Below are positions 4,258 through 56,482 of a DNA stretch of 56,482 nt, in pieces (the stretch's first letter is position 1; each line of letters starts with the position of its first letter). This DNA comes from Acidobacteriota bacterium (GTDB lineage: Bacteria > Acidobacteriota > CAIWXX01), in NCBI GenBank assembly GCA_016191015.1, contig JACPPM010000184.1, positions 1 through 56,482 of the forward strand, given 5' to 3'. Made by a program: the position numbers and the translations under genes. Below the pieces are notes generated by a model. It was given only the letters and a program-made list of their open reading frames with translations. It searched no databases and was not told the origin of the DNA.

Positions 4258-4341
4258 CAGGGCTGCGGCAAAGTCGAGGCGCCGACTCGGGCGAGGCCGT
4301 TCCGTGCGAAACCGCAGATGGCGCAGGTTTCCGCGCAGATT
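4258..4341 (-). repeat. 84-bp dispersed intergenic repeat, copy 2
   Basis: cagggctgcggcaaagtcgaggcgccgactcggg... ; near-identical to 18337-18420. Confidence 0.92.
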
Positions 4342-18336: not shown

Positions 18337-18420
18337 CAGGGCTGCGGCAAAGTCGAGGCGCCGACTCGGGCGAGGCCGTTCCGTGCGGAACCGCAGATGG
18401 CGCAGATTTCCGCGCAGATT
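18337..18420 (-). repeat. 84-bp dispersed intergenic repeat, copy 3
   Basis: cagggctgcggcaaagtcgaggcgccgactcgggcgagg...cgcgcagatt. Confidence 0.92.
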
Positions 18421-37509: not shown

Positions 37510-38500
37510 TTACAGCGCTTCCTGCCTCCGTTGCTCTGCTAGTGCGATCTGGCGCTGCCCGAGCCACAGACTCAGCGCGCACCACCCGGCTGCCAGCGGC
37601 GCGGCGAGAAAGCAGATGCCGGTGAGGCCAAACCCGAGCCAGGTGAGCAGCGGATACGACCACGCGCCCGTCTGGTCTCCCGCGCGATAGACGAACGTAT
37701 CCATGAAGCTCTTCGTTTTGTACTTGTCTTCGCGCCGCAGGACGGTGAAGAGCACTTCCCTCGCCGGCCGCGAGAGCGCGCAATTCATCGCCCGGCGCCC
37801 TACCTGGAAACATGCGAGCAGCCACAGCCCGGGCATGATGCCGATCGCGAGAAAGCCAACGAGACTGATCGCCGGCAGCATCGCGAGGGTGAGGCCCACG
37901 CCGAGCCACTTCAGCACTCGCCCGGTAAAGAAAACCTGCACCACGATCGTGAGCACGTTCACCCAGATATCGAGGTGCGCGAAAAACGCCGTGCGTGCCG
38001 CCCGATCGGTGAATTCCCGCCCGGCGATATCCGCCTGCTGGAAATAAACAAGCGTCGCCGTGACTGTGTGCAGCAGCATGAACGCGCAAATGCCCAACAG
38101 ATACGGCGAGCTGATTGCGTGCGTGATGCCCGACCACAACCTGCCGCCGATCGGGCGCTCCGCGTTCCCTGTCTCATCGCGAAACGCGCTCGCGTGCTCC
38201 CCTTTGAATTCCGCCGGGAACAAGCGCACGCACCACGCGCCGCATTCGAGGAGCACGGCGGAAATGATGAACAGATTCGCGGTGCCGAGCCGGCGCACGA
38301 GGAATGCCGTCAGTGCCCGCCGACGATCGCGCCCAATGTGCCGCCGACAGCAATGAATCCGAACAGCCGCTTTGCCTGCTCGGTGTTGAAGATGTCAGTC
38401 ATGAAGCCCCAAAAGACGGTGACGACGAAGAGATTGAAGACGCTGACCCACAAGAAGAACGCCCGGCCGGTAGTGTGCGCATCAGCACGATAGCCCAGCC
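37510..38500 (-). pseudogene. MFS/nucleotide-transporter-like membrane protein, N-truncated and frameshifted
   Basis: FFLWVSVFNLFVVTVFWGFMTDIFNTEQAKRLFGFIAVGGTLGAIVGGH, frameshift ~38310, then RRLGTANLFIISAVLLE... Confidence 0.8.
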
Positions 38501-38589: not shown

Positions 38590-38743
38590 ACGGGGCCTTG
38601 CAGGCGATCGAGGAGCTTGTCAAGAGCGAGAAGATCGAACGCCCGATGATCGATCGGGATACGGTGGAGCAGCTCTTCAGGGCGAAGCTCTTCGCGTTGC
38701 TTCCGGGGAACGGGCTCATCGGTCCCGAAGGCACGGCGGGCTA
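38590..38743 (+). pseudogene. IS91-family transposase internal fragment
   Basis: MIDRDTVEQLFRAKLFALLPGNGLIGPE matches VIHRDTVEKVFQAKVFALLLEKGLIGPE at 46810-46893. Confidence 0.75.
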
Positions 38744-39397
38744 GAGCTCGAAGAGGGACTCCTTGAGCCCCACGTCGACTTGGAGCCCCTTCCATTGTGT
38801 CTTGGACTGGGGATTGCCGGCGCGCAAGCGTAGCCATTCGACCGGGAACATAGTGCGGCTGTCGATGAGTACGAGCTCGCGTACGTTCTCATGATCGGCT
38901 TGGAGCCGATAAACGCCATCGGTCTCCGTGGCAGTAGCACTCGCGCCGGCCAGGATGGACTGGATGGATGCCAGCACGCCTCCGAAATGGCTCTCCGCGA
39001 ATGTGCTCCCGTCCTCATCTCGTAGCCGTTTGTCATCCGGCTCCATCGTAATCTTGAAGAAGCCGAGCAGTCCACCGGAGGTCGCCCGGACCTTTCCATC
39101 GCGCCGGAGGACGACGATGGCGCCTTTGTCCTTGCCTTCCGTTACTTCCAGCCGTATCAGTTGCGGTTTCTTGAAATAGTAGCTGTCGACTTCGACATTG
39201 CTTCGGCCGTTCCGATACTCCGTGTAGATGATCTGGCAGTGATAGTCATTCAAGGCTTCGTATCGTTGGCGCATCGCATCAACGAGTTGTTGGGGTCCGG
39301 GCACAGAGGATGCGCCTGCCGTTCCGTGCATCCATCCCCCCGCGACTCCGAGCGTGAGCGCGACAGCCGCAGCTATCCTCGAGTCCGTGAACCTCAT
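38741..39397 (-). CDS. LolA-like/DUF1571-type secreted protein
   Basis: signal peptide; MRQRYEALNDYHCQIIYTEYRNGRSNVEVDSYYFKKPQLIRLEV. Confidence 0.7.
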   Translation of the reverse strand: MRFTDSRIAAAVALTLGVAGGWMHGTAGASSVPGPQQLVDAMRQRYEALNDYHCQIIYTEYRNGRSNVEVDSYYFKKPQLIRLEVTEGKDKGAIVVLRRDGKVRATSGGLLGFFKITMEPDDKRLRDEDGSTFAESHFGGVLASIQSILAGASATATETDGVYRLQADHENVRELVLIDSRTMFPVEWLRLRAGNPQSKTQWKGLQVDVGLKESLFEL

Positions 39398-39434: not shown

Positions 39435-41357
39435 TCAACTGCCTAGAATTGCCGATGGCAGGAGCCGAAGGCCGAGTTTCAAGGCTTCAGCAATCGGAGC
39501 CCTTGTGGTTTCGAATATCCGGCGGAGGCGCTCCGCGTCCGGATCTACAAACCGTTCTCCCAGAACGAGTCCAGCAACCAACCTCCCCGAGAACTGAGTC
39601 TGCGCGACACCGCCGCTTCCGTAGCCGATATTCAGTACGACGTTTGGTGCGTGTGCCGCCGGACGCACGATCGGAGCATCGGTGAACGTCTGATGATAGG
39701 GCCCTCCCCAAGCGGCATCGAGGCGGGTATCTGCAAGAAAGGGGAAGTAGCGGAGCATCTCGGCATGGAGCCTCTCGTAGACCTTTGGGGCACGATCGGC
39801 CTCTGTGCTCGCCTTCGACATGTACTTGTCACCGCCGCCGAAAAGCAGTCGATGCTCGTGAATTCGGGCGTAGCAGAACGAGGCCGCCGTATCCCCGATG
39901 AACCGTCCACCCATTCGAAGCTTTGCCAGGATGGCATCGTCCAGGGGCTCCGTCGCCAGAAGATACGTGTGCACAGGCATTGGAAAGGGGCGGCGGGGAC
40001 CAAACCGCAGCTGTGAGGTGTATGCATTTGTGGCCAAGACTACCTTTCGGGCGTGCAGACGCGCGCCATCTGCCGTGAGCAAATCCACACCTTCCCGGGT
40101 GGGCAAGACGCGCGCCACTCTGGTGTCCTCGTAGAGTCGGACGCCGCGTCGCAGCAGGATCTCACGCAGTCCACGCGCCAGCTTGAAAGGGTGGACCATG
40201 TGGCCCTCAACAAACATGAGACCACCTCTCGTTGGGTAGGCGATCGTGTCCCTCAGGTCGGCCGCCGATAGGGCGCGGCAATTGACGCCGGCAAGCCCAC
40301 ACGTTTCAGCGAGCCATCGCAGAAGGGCCCGCTGAAAGCTGCGGGGAGCGGTGACGATGATTGGCGCCGGGCGATAATCGCAGTCAATTCCTTCACTCTG
40401 GATCATCTCCCCCAGCTCTCGCGATTGCTCGTGAATGTAGCCGATCGCCCACCGGACGTCCTCTCTCCGACTCCGGTCGTCGAGGCGATCCAGGAGCCAG
40501 GTCATCGGAGGAATCGGTGAGACGCCGCCCCCGTTCCGTCCGCTAGCTCCAAACCCGACATGCTCGCTCTCAACCAGAGCGACCTCCAAGGACGAATCGG
40601 CCTCCTTCAGAGAGCGCGCAGCAGACAGGCCTGCGAAACCCCCGCCGACGACCGCCACGTCCACGCGCCCCGTGCCTTCCAGTCTAGGCGCACGATCGTG
40701 CGGCCGATCGAACCAGTAAGACGTCCGATATGGAAACCCATTCACCGTCTGCGAAATCGGACCAGCCCTGCGGATGTCGGATTCGACTTCGGTGCCCACC
40801 ATCTGATATCCCTCCTTTTTCATCTTCCGACCTTTCCATCGTGCACGGATGAGCCGGGTGCCGTAGACGACCAGAACGACGTAGCTCGCGGCGAGCGCGC
40901 CCCACATCAGGAGAGAGACAAGGGACCCGTAGCAGGGAGGCACAGCCGCCAACCCGACCGATCCTCCGGCCGTTATCACGACCGTCCAAAAGGCCGTGCC
41001 CACGCTTGTCCAAAACAGCAGCCACCAGGGTGGTGCGCCGAGAATGACGCCCACAGCAATCCCCTCGGCGCCTCCAATCAGAAGCGGAGAGAGAAGGCCC
41101 AGTCCGATTGCGCCATATCGATTCCAGATGCGATGCAGACGCGCCGGTCGTGTGCCGTCCCCGCCTTTCGAGCGGGCCAACCACGCCTTCGCCCGCTCTC
41201 CCAGAATCGACACCAACACGCCCGCGAGTATGCCTCCCACAGCAGCGGCAGCCCCGGTCACGAACGGGTGTAGTCGCATCGCCATTCCGGCAGGCACCGC
41301 CAGCCAGATGTCGAAGACCCCAAGCCAGAACACCGTCATCGTTTTCAGAAGATCCAT
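39435..41357 (-). CDS. fusion: small multidrug-export-type membrane domain + DAO-family FAD oxidoreductase
   Basis: N-term 4-5 TM helices (RYGAIGLGLLSPLLIGGAEGIAVGVILGAPPWWLLFW); C-term VDVAVVGGGFAGLSAARSLKEADSSLEVALVESEHVGFGASGRNGGG; one uninterrupted frame. Confidence 0.82.
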   Translation of the reverse strand: MDLLKTMTVFWLGVFDIWLAVPAGMAMRLHPFVTGAAAAVGGILAGVLVSILGERAKAWLARSKGGDGTRPARLHRIWNRYGAIGLGLLSPLLIGGAEGIAVGVILGAPPWWLLFWTSVGTAFWTVVITAGGSVGLAAVPPCYGSLVSLLMWGALAASYVVLVVYGTRLIRARWKGRKMKKEGYQMVGTEVESDIRRAGPISQTVNGFPYRTSYWFDRPHDRAPRLEGTGRVDVAVVGGGFAGLSAARSLKEADSSLEVALVESEHVGFGASGRNGGGVSPIPPMTWLLDRLDDRSRREDVRWAIGYIHEQSRELGEMIQSEGIDCDYRPAPIIVTAPRSFQRALLRWLAETCGLAGVNCRALSAADLRDTIAYPTRGGLMFVEGHMVHPFKLARGLREILLRRGVRLYEDTRVARVLPTREGVDLLTADGARLHARKVVLATNAYTSQLRFGPRRPFPMPVHTYLLATEPLDDAILAKLRMGGRFIGDTAASFCYARIHEHRLLFGGGDKYMSKASTEADRAPKVYERLHAEMLRYFPFLADTRLDAAWGGPYHQTFTDAPIVRPAAHAPNVVLNIGYGSGGVAQTQFSGRLVAGLVLGERFVDPDAERLRRIFETTRAPIAEALKLGLRLLPSAILGS

Positions 41358-41452: not shown

Positions 41453-42106
41453 TCATCGCTTGACGGCCCGCCCCGCCTTCCGACCTCTCCGCCCGGCGTT
41501 CTTCCTGATACCGTCGAGGAAGCCGCGCGCGACATCCTTCGCCAGGCGCGGCAGGGGGATCGCTTCCGGGTCGATGATCCACTGGTACATGAGGCCATCG
41601 AGCAGGGCGGTCAGCATCGGCGTGGCCACAGAGCATCGATTAGCGTCGAGCTCGCCGTTCTCGATCCCCTCCCGCAGGAGACCCTCGATGAGCGCGCGCC
41701 CACGAGAATACCCTTCGTCTGCCATTGCCTCCATCTGCTTCCCAAGCTCCGGCCCGACCGGCAAGATATAGACCTTCATCAGGTTGCAAAATTCAGGGTG
41801 ATCGACGTAGTAGGTCAGAACCTCGACGATGAGAGTCTCGATCCGAGCAACGACCGTCTTGCCCTTTTCAGCGATGATCGACTCGACGCACTGCGTGAGA
41901 CTCTCCATCTCCCGTCGCGCGAGCGCCATGAAGAGGTGGCTCTTGCTGTCGAAGTACCAGTAGACAGCGCCCTTGCTGACATGGGCCGCGGCTGCAATGT
42001 CGTCGACGGTTGCGTCATGGTAGCCGTGCTTCGAGAACACATTCAGCGCGGCCTTCAGAATGAGATCACGAACCGCCGCCCGCTGCGTGCTCTTGCGTCG
42101 TTGCAT
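41453..42106 (-). CDS. TetR-family regulator
   Basis: ILKAALNVFSKHGYHDATVDDIAAAAHVSKGAVYWYFDSKSHLFMAL. Confidence 0.93.
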   Translation of the reverse strand: MQRRKSTQRAAVRDLILKAALNVFSKHGYHDATVDDIAAAAHVSKGAVYWYFDSKSHLFMALARREMESLTQCVESIIAEKGKTVVARIETLIVEVLTYYVDHPEFCNLMKVYILPVGPELGKQMEAMADEGYSRGRALIEGLLREGIENGELDANRCSVATPMLTALLDGLMYQWIIDPEAIPLPRLAKDVARGFLDGIRKNAGRRGRKAGRAVKR

Positions 42107-43468: not shown

Positions 43469-44041
43469 ATGGGAGTCTCGCGCGGGACCGCCGAACCCCG
43501 GGAGAAGATCTATCGTCCACGGTGCCCCGAGAAGAGCCCGTTTTACGCGGTACTCTTTCATCATTTCGAGCAGTTCAAGCGCGTGTACGATGAGCGATTC
43601 CAGGAGGAACACGGGCACTGGAGATCGGTCATCCAACGAGTCGTCGAGAAGTACCTCGGTTGTGGCATCCTGACCGGAGGCTTTTCTCGACTCAAATGTG
43701 ATTCCTGCAGAGAGGAGAAACTCCTGGCGTTCTCCTGCAAACGAAGAGGTTTCTGCCCCTCATGTTCCGCAAAGCGCGCGGTCCTCTGGAGTCAGTTCGG
43801 CCGCGACGAGGTCCTGCAGCCGGTGCCTCATATTCACGTTGCATTCTCGATCCCAAAAATGTTGAGAATCTTTTTCAAGTTTCACAGAGACCTTCTGCCC
43901 CGTCTGAGTCTCTGTGCGTGGGATGCGCTCAAGGCATACTTCGGGTCCCCACTCTCGGCTGATTCGATGCCTGCTGCTATCCTCTCGATCCAGACATCTG
44001 GACAGTTCTTGAATTTTCATTCCCACGTTCACGGACTCGTC
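43469..44041 (+). pseudogene. IS91-family transposase, N-terminal part
   Basis: LKCDSCREEKLLAFSCKRRGFCPSCSAKRA...FLNFHSHVHGLVT. Confidence 0.88.
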
Positions 44042-45679
44042 ACGCCGTGAACGCAAATCGAATTGGCTTGACACATTCTTTCCGTGGTGGGCTTCGGAGG
44101 TCTCTGGCGGATCTTTAGGAGATCTTGGCAGGGGGATCTTGAAGTAGAGGTGTACATGGGAACCATCCAGCACAGCTTCCTCCAGCACTGTCCGTGTCAG
44201 GAGTTGACGCTCATGGAAGTTCATCGTATTCAGTTTGGCCGCGATCTCGGTGGTGAAATTCTCGATCCTGGTAAGGATGTCTTTTCCTTCAAGGCAGGTC
44301 CGGCGTTCTTCTTGCAGCCCCCTTAAATCCCTCTCGATGCCGGCTAGCCTTTCGGACAGGCAGTGAGCGCGCTCCTCAAATTCCTCCTGGCGAACGAACC
44401 CCGCTTGGAATGCGTCCAAGAGTCGCCGTCTCTCGGCCTCGGCCTGACGCATCCTTTTCTCAGTCGCTTGGATCTGGCATGCGAGCAGATCTCCGTCCAA
44501 CGGTCTGGCTTCCTTTAGTTGTGTGTGCACCTTCAGGATCAGACGGGGATCGAGGAGATGTTGCCGGATCTCGTTCCAAACCAACTCGTCGAGTGGCTCA
44601 GCGCGAACGTGGCACGGACGACAGCGAGGAGCCCCAGAGAAGTCTGCCGACTTACCGCAACGATAGTAGTAGCGTCGAACCAGATCGGGTCGCTTCGCAT
44701 CGGACACGCAGGCGTACTTGCGACCGCACTTCGCACAACGCAGGAGTCTCCGAAGGAGCCATCGCTCTTTCTTTAGACGACGCGGACTAAACTGACGGTT
44801 GGGTCCATGACGCGATTGAGAGCGCTCGAACGTGGCGTGGTCGATGATGGGAGGGATTGCGAGGGAGATCCATTCAGCTTTGGGCCGAGTAAGGATATGG
44901 ATTCTTGGAGACCGTCCGCGCGATTCGGCGTTCTCCCCGATCACCGAGATGGTCTGCGTCCTATTGTAGTAAAGCGTGCCGAGGTAGGCTTCGCTGCGGA
45001 GGATCCGGTGGATGGTGGACTCTCCCCATGCTCTTCCTCCTTGCGAAGGCACCACCCCCGCCAAGGTAAGCCGTTTGGCGATCTGACGTATCGTGATGCC
45101 CTCGTCGGCATGCCAATGGAAAATCTCTCGGATCACCTCCGCCTTTTCTTGGTCGATGACGACATGGGGCGGGACCCCATCGCGGCGGGGCACGTGACGG
45201 TATCCCAAGGGGACACTCGTCCACCAGACCTCCCCTTGCCGTGCCCGATGGAGCTTCCCACGTCGATAACGCTCAGCGAGCTTGGCTCGCTCATACTCCG
45301 CCACGGCTCCCTGGATTTGTACCAGCAGGGAGGTGTGTGGGTCATCGGCTGGAGGCTGCTCCAAGAAAAGAACCTGAACTCCCAGGCGCTGGAACTCTTC
45401 GAGAATCAGGATCAGGTAGGCATACTTGCGGCTCAGGCGATCAGGTGACAGCACCAGGGCTGCATCGAAGCGGCCGGCCTCGGCGCCATCACGCAGACGA
45501 TCCAGTCCGCGGCGCTGAAGCGACGCCCCGCTGACGCCATCGTCCAGGCAGACGAACTCCTCGGCAATCTCATATCCCTGGCTGGCTGCATGCTTCCGAA
45601 GAGCTTCGATCTGGGAGGCAATAGTTCCGGCTCGCTCCTGCCTCTTGGTAGAAACCCGGGCATACAACGCGACTTTCAT
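43760..45679 (-). CDS. large serine recombinase (resolvase + recombinase + zinc ribbon)
   Basis: MKVALYARVSTKRQERAGTIASQIEALRKHA; DRLSRKYAYLILILEEF; LRCAKCGRKYACVS; last ~95 codons are antisense IS91 sequence. Confidence 0.9.
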   Translation of the reverse strand: MKVALYARVSTKRQERAGTIASQIEALRKHAASQGYEIAEEFVCLDDGVSGASLQRRGLDRLRDGAEAGRFDAALVLSPDRLSRKYAYLILILEEFQRLGVQVLFLEQPPADDPHTSLLVQIQGAVAEYERAKLAERYRRGKLHRARQGEVWWTSVPLGYRHVPRRDGVPPHVVIDQEKAEVIREIFHWHADEGITIRQIAKRLTLAGVVPSQGGRAWGESTIHRILRSEAYLGTLYYNRTQTISVIGENAESRGRSPRIHILTRPKAEWISLAIPPIIDHATFERSQSRHGPNRQFSPRRLKKERWLLRRLLRCAKCGRKYACVSDAKRPDLVRRYYYRCGKSADFSGAPRCRPCHVRAEPLDELVWNEIRQHLLDPRLILKVHTQLKEARPLDGDLLACQIQATEKRMRQAEAERRRLLDAFQAGFVRQEEFEERAHCLSERLAGIERDLRGLQEERRTCLEGKDILTRIENFTTEIAAKLNTMNFHERQLLTRTVLEEAVLDGSHVHLYFKIPLPRSPKDPPETSEAHHGKNVSSQFDLRSRRDESVNVGMKIQELSRCLDREDSSRHRISREWGPEVCLERIPRTETQTGQKVSVKLEKDSQHFWDRECNVNMRHRLQDLVAAELTPEDRALCGT

Positions 45680-46124
45680 GGCTGTCTCCTTCCGTGTCCT
45701 CGATCGGCCGCAGCGGCGGAGCCGACCTGTTTGATAATCGAAGAAAGACGTCGAGCAGAATCTTCTCGGCCTGATCATCTTTGCCACGCCAACGAGGACG
45801 AGGTGCCTGGTGAGCCTCGATGAAGTAGCCGTCAGCCGTGGCTGGCGTGAAGAGCCCCAGAAAGCCCATGCTCAGGAACCGGTCCCCAAGGTTGTCGGCG
45901 TACACCGCATCAGAGTCCTCTGCGATGAAGGCGCGACGTAAGTTTTCGTAGCGGTCCCGTGCACCATCCGGAGGAGGGTGAGAAGCTGGACGCAAAGATT
46001 CCGGATGAACATCCTCAGAAGTTTTTTTTTGATCGGAGCTCGGCGAGGAGTTTCTCGATTGTCCGTTTGTGGATCGAAATCCTAAACTTCGATTCGATCC
46101 GGGAAGCCAGAGCGGCGCCAGCAA
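45570..46124 (-). CDS. possible small cassette ORF between HTH gene and recombinase
   Basis: RYENLRRAFIAEDSDAVYADNLGDRFLSMGFLGLF; start codon unclear. Confidence 0.35.
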   Translation of the reverse strand: MLAPLWLPGSNRSLGFRSTNGQSRNSSPSSDQKKTSEDVHPESLRPASHPPPDGARDRYENLRRAFIAEDSDAVYADNLGDRFLSMGFLGLFTPATADGYFIEAHQAPRPRWRGKDDQAEKILLDVFLRLSNRSAPPLRPIEDTEGDSHESRVVCPGFYQEAGASRNYCLPDRSSSEACSQPGI

Positions 46125-46482
46125 TCTCGGGCTCTCGGTCGTACTCCCTCCGCGTGAAGCTCAGAATATCGCCCGACAATTTGGAGGGGCCTTTGGGCCC
46201 TGGTCTTTCCGGTAACAGCCCGCGACTCCCCTGACGGCTGAACTTTTCTAACAACGTGTAGAATGTCTGGCGGCTGAAACTGAAACGCCGACTCAATCCG
46301 ACGATATCTTCCCCATCGACGAGATGCGCCCGCAGCGCTTCGTAGCGCACCTGGAGCAGGTCGTGAGAGTCGAAGAATTCCGGCTGTTCAATGAACAACG
46401 GGTACCGAACCTGTTCCGGGTTCCGGTGCAGTAGACCAGCCTCTTCCAGATAACGCCTCTTTTGTCGTGTTGGTGTTTTCAT
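46015..46482 (-). CDS. helix-turn-helix (transposase-like) cassette protein
   Basis: RYEALRAHLVDGEDIVGLSRRFSFSRQTFYTLLEKFSRQGSRGLLPERPGPKGPSKL. Confidence 0.75.
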   Translation of the reverse strand: MKTPTRQKRRYLEEAGLLHRNPEQVRYPLFIEQPEFFDSHDLLQVRYEALRAHLVDGEDIVGLSRRFSFSRQTFYTLLEKFSRQGSRGLLPERPGPKGPSKLSGDILSFTRREYDREPEIAGAALASRIESKFRISIHKRTIEKLLAELRSKKNF

Positions 46483-46767
46483 AATTTGAAATCCTAACCG
46501 CACCCGTGTCACATGTCAACTCTACTATACCGCTCCAGACGCACCCATCTCCAGCATACCTGTGTATAGGCCTATATATGAAACTCATCCGTAAATGCGG
46601 CTTAATCACGCTGACACTGCGGCACAATCCACTAGACAACTGCCCCGATCTTCGCGTCTTCACAAAGCTCTGTGCTTCCTCGGAAAAAGGTCACCCAGGC
46701 TCCGTTGCGGCACCCGGATTTCGACGATCAGCCGCAAATGAGCATTTGCGATCATAGCGTGGTAGTC

Positions 46768-47556
46768 GCCGGCGGTTTCCGGGCGGATGGTTCATTCGAG
46801 CCTTGCCCCGTGATCCACCGGGATACCGTGGAGAAGGTCTTCCAGGCGAAGGTCTTCGCCCTGCTTCTGGAGAAGGGGCTCATCGGTCCCGAGCTCGTTA
46901 CCAAGATGAAATCTTGGCGCCACAGCGGTTTCAATATCTACCTCGGACCCGCCATCCAGAAGATCGAGGACGGAGTCCGGGTCGGCCTCTATATCGTGCG
47001 CGCCCCGGCCGCCTCTGGCCGTCTCACCGTCGGAGACGGCCCGACCCTCAAGTATCTCGCCAAGTCCTTTGTAGGGGGACAGGATCAGGGGCGACTATTC
47101 GAATCCCCTGGCGAGGTCTACGACGTGCTCGAGTGGATCGCCCGCCTCACCAGTCACATTCCCGACCAGGGTGCCCAGCTCATTCATTATTACGCCGCGT
47201 ACTCGAACGCCCATCGCGGGAAGCGTCGACGGCAGGCGGCAAGCGAAGGGTCGGGTACAGAAGGAGTGGCGGTCGCTCTTTCACCGGTTGAGGACGAAAG
47301 TGACTGGGTCAGACAGCGGAGGAGGTCGTGGGCAGCCTTGGTTCAGCTCGTCTACGAGGTAAATCCCCTCCTCTGCCGCTGCGGCGGGACGATGCGCATG
47401 ATGGCCATCATCTCGGCTTCCGAGCAGCCAGAGGTGGTCGATCGAATTCTCAAGTGTGTCGGCTATCGATTCGAGGTGCTCGAACTTCCAGCCCGACCGC
47501 CGCCACCACCGGAGCCAGAACCCTCCGAATCCACATCGGACTGCTCCTTCATGTAG
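46768..47556 (+). pseudogene. IS91-family transposase, C-terminal part
   Basis: VIHRDTVEKVFQAKVFALLLEKGLIGPELVTKMKSWRHSGFNIYLGPAI...IHYYAAYSNAHRGKRRR. Confidence 0.88.
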
Positions 47557-48873: not shown

Positions 48874-49043
48874 CTCATCACCGCGACTGGACAGAAGCTC
48901 TTTGCCGGCACGGACGCTTCGAGTGTCTTCGCGAGGGCGCTCGCGCAGGGCTTCGCGGTCTCAGGGATCAGTTCGGGAGATTTATCGCTCAGTCCCCGCC
49001 GAAAGCGAGAGACGTTTTCCGCCTTCAGCGGTGAGCTGATCGC

Positions 49044-49078
49044 ATACGGAAAGCGTATTCCGGATACGTAAATCGTAT
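49044..49078. promoter_or_regulatory. double-dyad leader element, copy 1
   Basis: ATACG-gaaag-CGTAT tccgg ATACG-taaat-CGTAT. Confidence 0.65.
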
Positions 49079-49275
49079 GCCCGCGGGCGACCTGCGAGAA
49101 ACAGGTGCTTGCAACGTCGCATCAGCGCGTCGAGATCCAGGAGTCTCTGACTGGCACGCGACGAGCAGAGGATTCTGGTTAGCTATAGATCATCGACCCG
49201 ATCTCAATCCCTACCGAGAGAACGCGGTCTGGTCCGGCGCGTCGACTTGTGAAAACCAACAAAGGGAGATCGCCC

Positions 49276-52200: not shown

Positions 52201-52317
52201 CGAGTGAGGATAGAAACCCCGATCGGTGGAGGCACGAACGTTTACGCGGAGGTGCATCTTGATTGGATTGCCCGGTGGTTCTCGCGGCGCCCGCGAGTCA
52301 TGGCATGGGAGAAATGA
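49276..52317 (+). CDS. hybrid propeller sensor histidine kinase (NarL-type)
   Basis: repeated WIG/LWLG propeller units, Y_Y_Y-like domain, TM, RVATEIHDTLAQVLTGLRLHL, HIAQEAVTNAVRHS; SD aaaggga. Confidence 0.93.
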   Translation: MRPVSILLRRAGRCLIATTPWLVFSLAPQSIVLALDPDVPIRSYLHRTWQKENGLPHLTVSAMAQTRDGYLWLGTPGGLIRFDGMRFTLFENFAGLAEKSVWTLLADEDGGLWIGLKVGGLVYRSKEGASTAYTVSNGLASNRIRCLHKDRLGTLWIGTDDAGLAAFAGGRFSSFTAREGLGAKRVRCLREDESGNLWLGSDGGVLYCRSKDGRFTAFEASGKPRGLAVESLAENSDGGLWVGFRGGGVALFRDGRWFSPPKPLEAIAGETVRVIFKDHDGNQWFATEAGLGRLTAGRFEIFRPRDGLSNDWVLSLFEDRQGTLWAGTLIGLNQFLNTGFSSMTTADGSPDAAVICVHEGRKGDLWLGTMRGLARVAPNGRTILEPSGAHLPKEFIIAVREDSQGALWLGTWASGVTRVKDGVVRTFTVADGLASDLIRCLSEDREGSLWIGATEGGLTRLRDGHAEVFTNPSGLRSNLVGSVRQCRDGSLWVATYEAGLNRLSAGRWSSFGPAEGFHAKRPQELYEDSEGDLWIPTEGDGLYRLKNGRFSAASQREGLPDSIFGVLEDTEGRLWMASDRGVLSAPKRDIESVLSGRLGSVTCTTYGPADGMSTADGVGGGTPPVWKTRDGRLVIPNVRGVTIIDPTRVRKEQPPRMAIEEVTVDGASFDGRAASLLPAGSGRLQIRYTAVTFVDPAAVRFKYRLEGFDKDWVDAGPRREATYTSLPPRNFCFRVVACNKEGAWSATSAEWRFGVEPFFYQRPVFYALCVLAAGTLVLGLHRLRLRELLTRNAVLRERSRVATEIHDTLAQVLTGLRLHLARVDELVPENADDARSHLAVARELARTCSEETRRAVNALRPRALVAGPFPEALRSMAETLASAAGMDVSLEVRGEPHLLSEAAEHDLWHIAQEAVTNAVRHSRGRHVRLFLGYERHLVRLCVSDDGTGILAPPTADSSGSLGLAGMLQRSLKRRVRVRIETPIGGGTNVYAEVHLDWIARWFSRRPRVMAWEK

Positions 52318-52318
52318 G

Positions 52319-52951
52319 ATGAGCACAGCATCGGCCATTCGAGTCGTCATCGTTGATGATCACCCTGTCGTGCGACGCGGGCTCAGGGCCGTGCTGGGCG
52401 GACAGGCGGACGTGGCCGTTGTGGCCGAAGCGGGCAATGCGGCCGAGGCGGCCACGGTTCTCGCAAGGACGAGACCTGACGTGGTCCTCCTCGATCTGCG
52501 CCTTCCCGACGCCTCTGGGACCGAAGCGATAGCGATGGTCATGGCGGTACAGCCCGGTGCCCGCATTCTCGTCGTGTCGAGCTACAGCCGCCCCGGGGAT
52601 GTTCGCTCGGCTCTCGAAGCAGGCGCCTTGGGTTACACGGTCAAGGATGCTGCGGATGAGGACGTCGTCGGAGCCGTGCGGATGGTAGCCCGGGGAAGCG
52701 CCTTTGTCTCGCCTTCGGCAGCCGACGGATTGGCTCGAGAGCAGTACATCGAGAGATTCACTCCGCGCGAACAGGAGATCGTGGAGCTCATGGCCGAGGG
52801 CTGCACCAACGACCAGATCGCCGCCGTGCTCGGCCTGACCATCGGCACCACCAAGAACTACGTCCATGCCATCCTGTTGAAGCTCTGCGTGAATGACCGC
52901 ACCGCCGCCGTGGCCGCCGCTACACGCCTCGGGGTCCTGAAACCCCGTTAG
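52319..52951 (+). CDS. NarL/FixJ-family response regulator
   Basis: IRVVIVDDHPVVRRGL...LLDLRLPDASG...TPREQEIVELMAEGCTNDQIAAVLGLTIGTTKNYVHAIL. Confidence 0.95.
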   Translation: MSTASAIRVVIVDDHPVVRRGLRAVLGGQADVAVVAEAGNAAEAATVLARTRPDVVLLDLRLPDASGTEAIAMVMAVQPGARILVVSSYSRPGDVRSALEAGALGYTVKDAADEDVVGAVRMVARGSAFVSPSAADGLAREQYIERFTPREQEIVELMAEGCTNDQIAAVLGLTIGTTKNYVHAILLKLCVNDRTAAVAAATRLGVLKPR

Positions 52952-53047
52952 CGATCGTCAACGAAAGAGGAGCGGGGCTCAACTCCGGCCCCCTAGCCGA
53001 CCGCTTTCCCAAATCGGAGCCGCCTTGATCGTTCGACTCGCGAATTC
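52319..53047 (+). repeat. 729-bp direct repeat, copy 1
   Basis: Collinear without indels with 55754-56482; last 117 bp identical. Confidence 0.95.
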
Positions 53048-54780: not shown

Positions 54781-54939
54781 CGTGTACGAAAAAACCCGCT
54801 AACGAAAATATCTCGGAGTTTTCCACAGGTCGTTTCCCCCCCGGACCCCCCGCTTCCTCCTCCTTCGATAATCCCGGAAAAATCTCCGGCTTTGTACATA
54901 CCGTCCAGTTTTCGTTGCTGTGCTAACGGGATCTGGTGT

Positions 54940-55330
54940 TGCCCGAGTCACAGACTGAGCGCACACCAGCCTGCAGCCAGCGGCGCGGCGAGAAAGCAGA
55001 TGCCGGTGAGCCGGAACCCGACCCACGTCGGCAGCGGATAGGACCACGCGCCCGTCTGTTCTCCCGCGCGATACACGAACGTGTCCATGACTGACGCCCG
55101 GGAAGGGAAATCTGCACCGCGATTGTGAGCACGGTCACCCAGATATCGATGTGTGCGAAGAACGCGGCGCGTACCGCCCGATCGGTGAATTCCCGCCCGG
55201 CGATATCCGCCTGCTGGAAGGAGACCAGCGTCGCCGTGACTGTGTGCAGCGCCATGAACGCGCGAATGCCCAACAGATACGGCGAGCTGATGGCGTGGTT
55301 GAGGATCATCCCGCAGTGGGCTGAGGACTC
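54940..55330 (-). pseudogene. second decayed copy of the MFS/nucleotide-transporter-like gene, internal deletion
   Basis: HAISSPYLLGIRAFMALHTVTATLVSFQQADIAGREFTDRAVRAAFFAHIDIWV and DTFVYRAGEQTGAWSYPLPTWVGFRLTGICFLAAPLAAG match 37510-38298. Confidence 0.85.
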
Positions 55331-55508
55331 GCCGGTCTGCCCAGCTCGACGCGAGGAGCTTGCCTGGCGCAACGGGCCGATCGAGAGCATTCACTCCGGG
55401 TGAGCGCAGAGGTACGTGGTCACGCACATGCGGATCACGCCATCAGAAGAGCGAGAGATCATGCGGATTGGGACTCGAAGTCCTCGCCTTCAACGCTGAG
55501 CGGATCGC

Positions 55509-55543
55509 ATGCGGAATCCGCATGCCGGATACGCATATCGTAT
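55509..55543. promoter_or_regulatory. double-dyad leader element, copy 2
   Basis: ATGCG-gaatc-CGCAT gccgg ATACG-catat-CGTAT. Confidence 0.65.
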
Positions 55544-55739
55544 GGCGTTGCGCGACCTGCATGAAGCAGGTGCTTCTAACCTCGTCCCGGCGTGTCGAGA
55601 TCCAGGGGCTCCGGATTGGCACGAGATGAGCACAGGATCCTGGTTAGCGATGGGTCACAGACTCGATCTCAACCCCTCGCGAGAGATCGCGGTCTGGTCC
55701 GGCTCGTCGCCTTGCGAATGCCAGCAAAGGGGGATCACC

Positions 55740-55757
55740 ATGGGGGAAGTGAAATGA
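55740..55757 (+). other. 5-codon remnant ORF of the deleted kinase (MGEVK*)
   Basis: aaagggggatcacc ATG GGG GAA GTG AAA TGA, overlapping the next ATG. Confidence 0.75.
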
Positions 55758-56386
55758 GCACAGCATCCGCCATCCGAGTCGTCATCGTCGATGATCACCC
55801 TGTCGTGGGACGTGGGCTGGGGGCCATGCTGGGCGGGCAGCCGGACGTGGCCGTTGTGGCCGAAGCGGGCAATGCGGCCGAGGCGGCGACGGTGATCGCA
55901 AGGACGAGACGTGACGTGGTCCTCCTCGATCTGCGCCTCCCCGACGCCTCCGGGACCGAAGCGATAGCGAAGGTCGTGGCGGTACAGCCCGGTGCCCGCA
56001 TTCTCGTCGTGTCGAGCTACAGCCGCCCCGGCGATGTTCGATCGGCTCTCGAAGTAGGCGCCTTGGGTTACGCGGTCAAGGATGCGGTGGACGAGGACGT
56101 CGTCGGAGCCGTGCGGACAGTAGCCCGGGGAAGCGCCTTTGTCTCGCCTTCGGCAGCCGACGGATTGGCTCGAGAGCAGTACATCGAGGGATTCACTCCG
56201 CGCGAGCAGGAGATCATGGAGATCATGGCCGAGGGCTGCACCAACGACCAGATCGCCGCCCTGCTCGGCCTGACCATCGGGACCACCAAGAACTACGTGC
56301 ACGCCATCCTGCTGAAGCTCTGCGTGAATGACCGCACAGCCGCCGTGGCCGCCGCCACACGCATCGGGGTCCTGAAACCCCGTTAG
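55754..56386 (+). CDS. NarL/FixJ-family response regulator, paralog of 52319-52951
   Basis: About 17 amino-acid differences from the first copy by eye; same length. Confidence 0.95.
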   Translation: MSTASAIRVVIVDDHPVVGRGLGAMLGGQPDVAVVAEAGNAAEAATVIARTRRDVVLLDLRLPDASGTEAIAKVVAVQPGARILVVSSYSRPGDVRSALEVGALGYAVKDAVDEDVVGAVRTVARGSAFVSPSAADGLAREQYIEGFTPREQEIMEIMAEGCTNDQIAALLGLTIGTTKNYVHAILLKLCVNDRTAAVAAATRIGVLKPR

Positions 56387-56482
56387 CGATCGTCAACGAA
56401 AGAGGAGCGGGGCTCAACTCCGGCCCCCTAGCCGACCGCTTTCCCAAATCGGAGCCGCCTTGATCGTTCGACTCGCGAATTC
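55754..56482 (+). repeat. 729-bp direct repeat, copy 2 (runs to window end)
   Basis: offset 3435 bp from copy 1. Confidence 0.95.

Follow-up and report, generated by a model that had tools for sequence, protein, structure and literature searches.

A DedA-like membrane protein and a DAO-type FAD oxidase share one open reading frame with an internal ribosome-binding site in an Acidobacteriota bacterium

In ClpB, one open reading frame (ORF) gives two isoforms by means of an internal in-frame start, and the shorter isoform is a working protein. The ORF described here resembles ClpB and other internal-start genes in having two starts, but in those genes the arrangement is conserved across species, whereas the present one was seen once. 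Enzymes of the DAO fold are also known at membranes, as shown by Proteus LAAD, a membrane-bound protein whose activity rises at membranes and which possibly donates electrons to cytochrome b (PMC5651824). The oxidase part of the present ORF shares with LAAD the DAO fold (matches to 5hxw and 5i39) and a possible location at the membrane. However, LAAD, which faces outwards, relies on one Tat-type helix at its N terminus and on an insertion, whereas the multi-helix DedA-like domain of the present protein would hold the enzyme inside. A case has been made for homology between the membrane protein families PF06695 and PF09335 (DedA/VTT) (PMC7818093).

A related arrangement is present in the same phylum, where a single ORF at locus L125 (G053:C71) combines an N-terminal VTT/DedA domain with a Pyr_redox FAD enzyme. 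Both proteins have a DedA-superfamily membrane domain N-terminal to an FAD enzyme, but the enzyme families differ, and the joint ATG of L125 is not preceded by a Shine-Dalgarno sequence (SD), whereas the joint studied here has a near-perfect SD and no added linker. DedA-type domains before FAD enzymes are already known in the phylum, and the present architecture is a variant thereof. In addition, at locus L124 (2068 to 4752; G008:C17) no stop separates a VTT/DedA gene from the TonB-dependent receptor gene that follows, giving a frame of 895 amino acids. This frame can hardly be taken for a functional fusion, and it shows that joints without a stop also arise for no purpose or through errors. 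Two Acidobacteriota families also have long frames (L126:1660-4506 and L127:1216-4017) in which an alpha/beta hydrolase and a VTT/DedA domain occur together with an additional C-terminal part; this type looks like a conserved multidomain DedA protein.

The window (the whole stretch of DNA that was analyzed, 56,482 nucleotides) contains, on its minus strand, an ORF of 640 codons without an internal stop, which starts at 41357 with an ATG behind an SD and ends with a TGA at 39435 (640 amino acids plus TGA; Table 1). The sequence-only reading, according to which no stop separates a membrane domain from an oxidoreductase, was therefore borne out, and its placement of an SD at 40810 to 40817, followed by a short spacer and an in-frame ATG at 40802, proved correct to the base. 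The joint reads AAG ATG AAA AAG GAG GGA TAT CAG ATG GTG, in which the spacer atatcag occupies positions 40809 to 40803 and the ATG at 40802 to 40800 is in frame with both halves. The codon-position composition remains gene-like across the joint.

Table 1. Features of the fused ORF and its neighbors in the window
Feature	Positions	Strand	Basis or remark
Stop-less fused ORF	39435..41357	-	Start preceded by gagagggagtcggacag
PF06695/DedA-like membrane domain, codons 1 to 185	40803..41357	-	Stand-alone homologues and transmembrane segments
Complete DAO-family FAD oxidoreductase, 455 amino acids	39435..40802	-	PF01266, AlphaFold, Foldseek
Internal SD, AAGGAGGG	40810..40817	-	7 nt before ATG
Internal in-frame ATG (Met186), native start of the oxidase	40800..40802	-	Equivalent residue starts separate homologue L003
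TetR-family regulator	41453..42106	-	PF00440, E value 3e-19; own SD ggaaggag before ATG at 42106
Downstream ORF with signal-peptide-like start	38741..39397	-	No Pfam family; own SD ggggagg

The internal SD is among the best in the whole window. On both strands, AAGGAGG lies 4 to 9 nt before an ATG at four sites only, and the site at the joint is the only one of these that is in frame within the fused ORF. When the codons of the fused ORF were shuffled, the same core arose before any in-frame ATG with P = 0.006, and the core with an in-frame ATG within 15 codons of the joint arose with P of about 0.0005, indicating that the site reflects more than chance. A strong SD, correct spacing, and an in-frame start thus coincide at a domain boundary, the combination by which a two-product gene would be recognized. 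The RNA around the SD was not more stable than shuffled sequences (z = +1.13), giving no indication of structured regulation at the joint, and a consensus scan of the minus strand near 40802 detected no internal promoter for the oxidase alone. A programmed frameshift at G AAA AAG, just before the SD, would be superfluous because no stop interrupts the zero frame, and we found no evidence for one.

The C-terminal part is a complete DAO-family enzyme. Residues 233 to 596 match PF01266 over model positions 1 to 352 of 353 (E value, 6.7e-56; 190.8 bits against a cutoff of 27.9), and the GxGxxG motif of the FAD-binding Rossmann fold is present (VVGGGFAGLSAA). The AlphaFold model of the oxidase has pLDDT values mostly between 80 and 98, and Foldseek matched it to glycine oxidase and the sarcosine oxidase beta subunit (4ysh_B, E value 2.9e-23; 1vrq_B, E value 4.5e-23). 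The protein therefore agrees with the DAO family (glycine oxidase ThiO, sarcosine oxidase, TIGR03329) in its full-length match, FAD motif, and fold, and it differs in being fused behind a membrane protein and in having about 31 to 34% identity to its nearest homologues. It did not reach the curated NCBIfam cutoffs of the named DAO equivalogs (ThiO, SoxB, AmaA, TIGR03329, and DadA); even the best of these, TIGR03329, scored 152.9 bits against 632.8, and the others shown were also far below their cutoffs. For this reason we did not assign the oxidase to any named equivalog. The putative substrate, judging from the family, is an amine or an amino acid.

The N-terminal domain (residues 1 to 185) aligns along nearly the whole 121-position PF06695 model, with a score of 17.5 bits that is below the gathering cutoff of 30.7. 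The label is nevertheless valid by homology, because four of five aligned relatives (42 to 46% identical over the alignment) pass the cutoff with 32.7 to 36.4 bits; the fifth scores 28.8, and three members also match VTT (PF09335). Over about residues 3 to 139, the identity to G033, G082, G137, G287, G357, and others is 44 to 47%, and five genomes of a single Acidobacteriota family encode a protein with 44 to 47% identity. The domain had been described from its sequence as a small export-type membrane domain; the membrane domain and, by homology, its PF06695 membership hold, whereas "export" is only the name of the Pfam family, from which multidrug export is taken as a putative function. Compared with typical PF06695 (Sm_multidrug_ex) and PF09335 (VTT) proteins, the present domain scores below the curated cutoff and is followed by an extra transmembrane helix and the DAO enzyme. 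PF06695 matches in three frames of 519 to 529 amino acids (L042 to L044) were set aside as chance matches, since their sequences read as NapH-like ferredoxin proteins.

The closest relatives of the membrane domain, in Aminicenantes-type Acidobacteriota, are stand-alone proteins of about 140 to 144 amino acids (42 to 47% identical) that end near residue 137 to 139 of the query. Residues 140 to 185 add one hydrophobic transmembrane helix (about 146 to 164) and a basic tail, RARWKGRKMKKEGYQ. The PF06695 members L034 and L036 of the phylum likewise carry one more hydrophobic helix at the C-terminal end, which is also basic, so that residues 140 to 185 are plausibly the natural C terminus of the membrane protein. 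The positive-inside rule would place the basic tail, and hence the oxidase, on the cytoplasmic side. The AlphaFold model has a confident DAO domain and a helical N-terminal domain, and its pLDDT falls below 50 at the joint (residues 173 to 209), which indicates two independent domains.

Separate genes are the rule for both halves. When 84,980 species genomes were scanned with a family alignment of the N-terminal domain, 11 loci were obtained, mostly in "Candidatus Aminicenantes" and other Acidobacteriota, and the phylum genomes gave 6 (including the weak L029); none of these 17 loci, some of which come from shared genomes, is fused to a DAO enzyme. The 29 nearest DAO homologues in the phylum (27 to 35% identical) all stand alone, and a membrane segment precedes the enzyme in none of them, including those in long open frames; the frames of 610 to 791 amino acids around some of them merely extend into stop-poor upstream sequence and are not fusions. 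Among the DAO homologues, L003 has an equally long N terminus, its own ATG lying 46 amino acids before the VDVA-GxGxxG motif, the same distance as Met186. As the relatives of each half are separate and L003 starts at the equivalent of Met186, the fusion joins the two genes, by these comparisons, exactly at their native boundaries (the end of the first and the start of the second) and without any inserted sequence.

An old fusion family was rejected, since scans of the 84,980-genome collection with the full-length query and with the N-terminal alignment detected no second fused member and searches of 396 phylum genomes with each half detected no fused homologue. The plasmid matches listed are confined to the DAO part, and 80% coverage of the query was reached nowhere. 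The class is represented by two genomes, and the other one has no membrane protein, oxidase, or close copies of the neighboring genes; since it lacks an orthologous locus, the change cannot be dated in time or direction. The comparison of orthologues proposed in the sequence-only reading thus gave uniformly separate, distant homologues of both halves and no orthologue in the other class genome.

The fused ORF, the TetR gene upstream, and the secreted-type ORF downstream form a close group on the same strand, and every one of them has an SD of its own. The gap between the TetR gene and the fused ORF is 95 nt, and the downstream ORF begins 37 nt past the oxidase stop. TetR is probably the first gene of the operon, and the only promoter-like site that the consensus scan found on the minus strand is upstream of it. 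Just downstream, a TLC-like gene (ATP/ADP carrier family; 37510 to 38453, minus strand) is broken by a frame change near 38313 to 38316 and lacks its N terminus in comparison with an intact paralogue of 915 amino acids (L056); because it is both frameshifted and truncated, we regard the neighborhood as decaying or rearranged. A second degraded TLC-like copy is located at 54913 to 55297 (87 to 90% identical). Elsewhere in the window, an IS91-type transposase looks split into a zinc-binding half (43469 to 44050, plus strand) and a Y2 half (46672 to 47556, plus strand), between which lies a serine recombinase (43760 to 45787, minus strand; PHROG integrase, E value 5e-97), and it is possible that a recombinase element inserted into an IS91 (43469 to 47556). 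Repeats comprise (i) a LuxR-type response regulator region at 52304 to 53047 that is duplicated at 55739 to 56482 (94% identity); (ii) the pair 49020 to 49274 and 55485 to 55739 (79%); and (iii) an 84-base element at 121 to 204, 4258 to 4341, and 18337 to 18420, 93 to 98% identical and present in both orientations.

We consider it somewhat probable that a stop codon was lost at a tight operon joint, that the start of the oxidase was retained, and that the locus gives both a fusion and a free oxidase. The ancestral operon would have carried, in order, genes for TetR, a DedA/PF06695-like membrane protein, a DAO-type FAD oxidase, and a secreted-type protein, and the stop between the second and third genes would have been lost while the SD and ATG of the oxidase were kept. 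Translation from 41357 would give the 640-amino-acid fusion, in which the oxidase is tethered at the cytoplasmic face of the membrane, and translation from 40802 would give a free oxidase of 455 amino acids. Ten of the 17 codons from the last transmembrane helix to Met186 are one substitution away from a stop, and the +1 frame contains a TGA at the joint itself; for these reasons, stop loss is the best account of the origin. We infer stop loss rather than an old fusion, and likewise the use of both starts and the membrane orientation. The sequence-only reading had offered a lost stop or a two-product locus as alternatives, and these are not mutually exclusive: the comparison favors the lost stop as the origin, all relatives being separate and the joint lying at native gene ends, and with the SD-ATG intact, both products are expected. 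The internal start could, however, be weakened by ribosomes that traverse the SD during elongation. It may be conjectured that tethering brings a benefit, such as the delivery of electrons to the respiratory chain.

The same joint could also have been produced by a base error in the assembly or by a private mutation of one strain, in which case the population would carry two ordinary, separate genes. We regard this as a rather unlikely alternative, though one with several points in its favor: the joint falls exactly at two native gene ends with the SD-ATG intact, one base change or indel would suffice given the TGA in the +1 frame, the genome is in 349 contigs, the neighboring TLC-like gene is frameshifted and truncated, and the stop-less VTT-TonB receptor joint of L124 has no obvious biological sense. 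However, the assembly has a completeness of 100% and a contamination of 0.31%, the frame is clean and gene-like on either side of the joint with no direct sign of error, and the TLC-like remnant, with its missing N terminus and second degraded copy, looks like real decay. A genuine, selected membrane-anchored oxidase that is made chiefly as the fusion, with the internal SD as a relic, would find precedents in L125 and in the membrane-bound DAO-fold enzyme of Proteus (PMC5651824), and the cytoplasmic location that the basic tail predicts would suit an FAD enzyme without a signal peptide. We consider this improbable, because L125 lacks an SD where the present joint has a near-perfect one and no linker and because neither the 396 phylum genomes nor the 84,980-genome scans gave another member. 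Very improbable, in our estimate, is a joint deliberately built for two products, in which anchored and free oxidase would be made from one transcript in a set ratio and the anchored form would pass electrons from the oxidation of amines or amino acids to the membrane or its product to the DedA-like domain.

If the missing stop is an assembly error or a private mutation, the locus is ordinary. If the sequence is right, stop loss with a retained start would make this locus a snapshot of the onset of gene fusion, in which the free enzyme need not be given up because the second gene retains its own ribosome-binding site, and DAO oxidases would be a new class of enzymes found behind DedA-type membrane domains.
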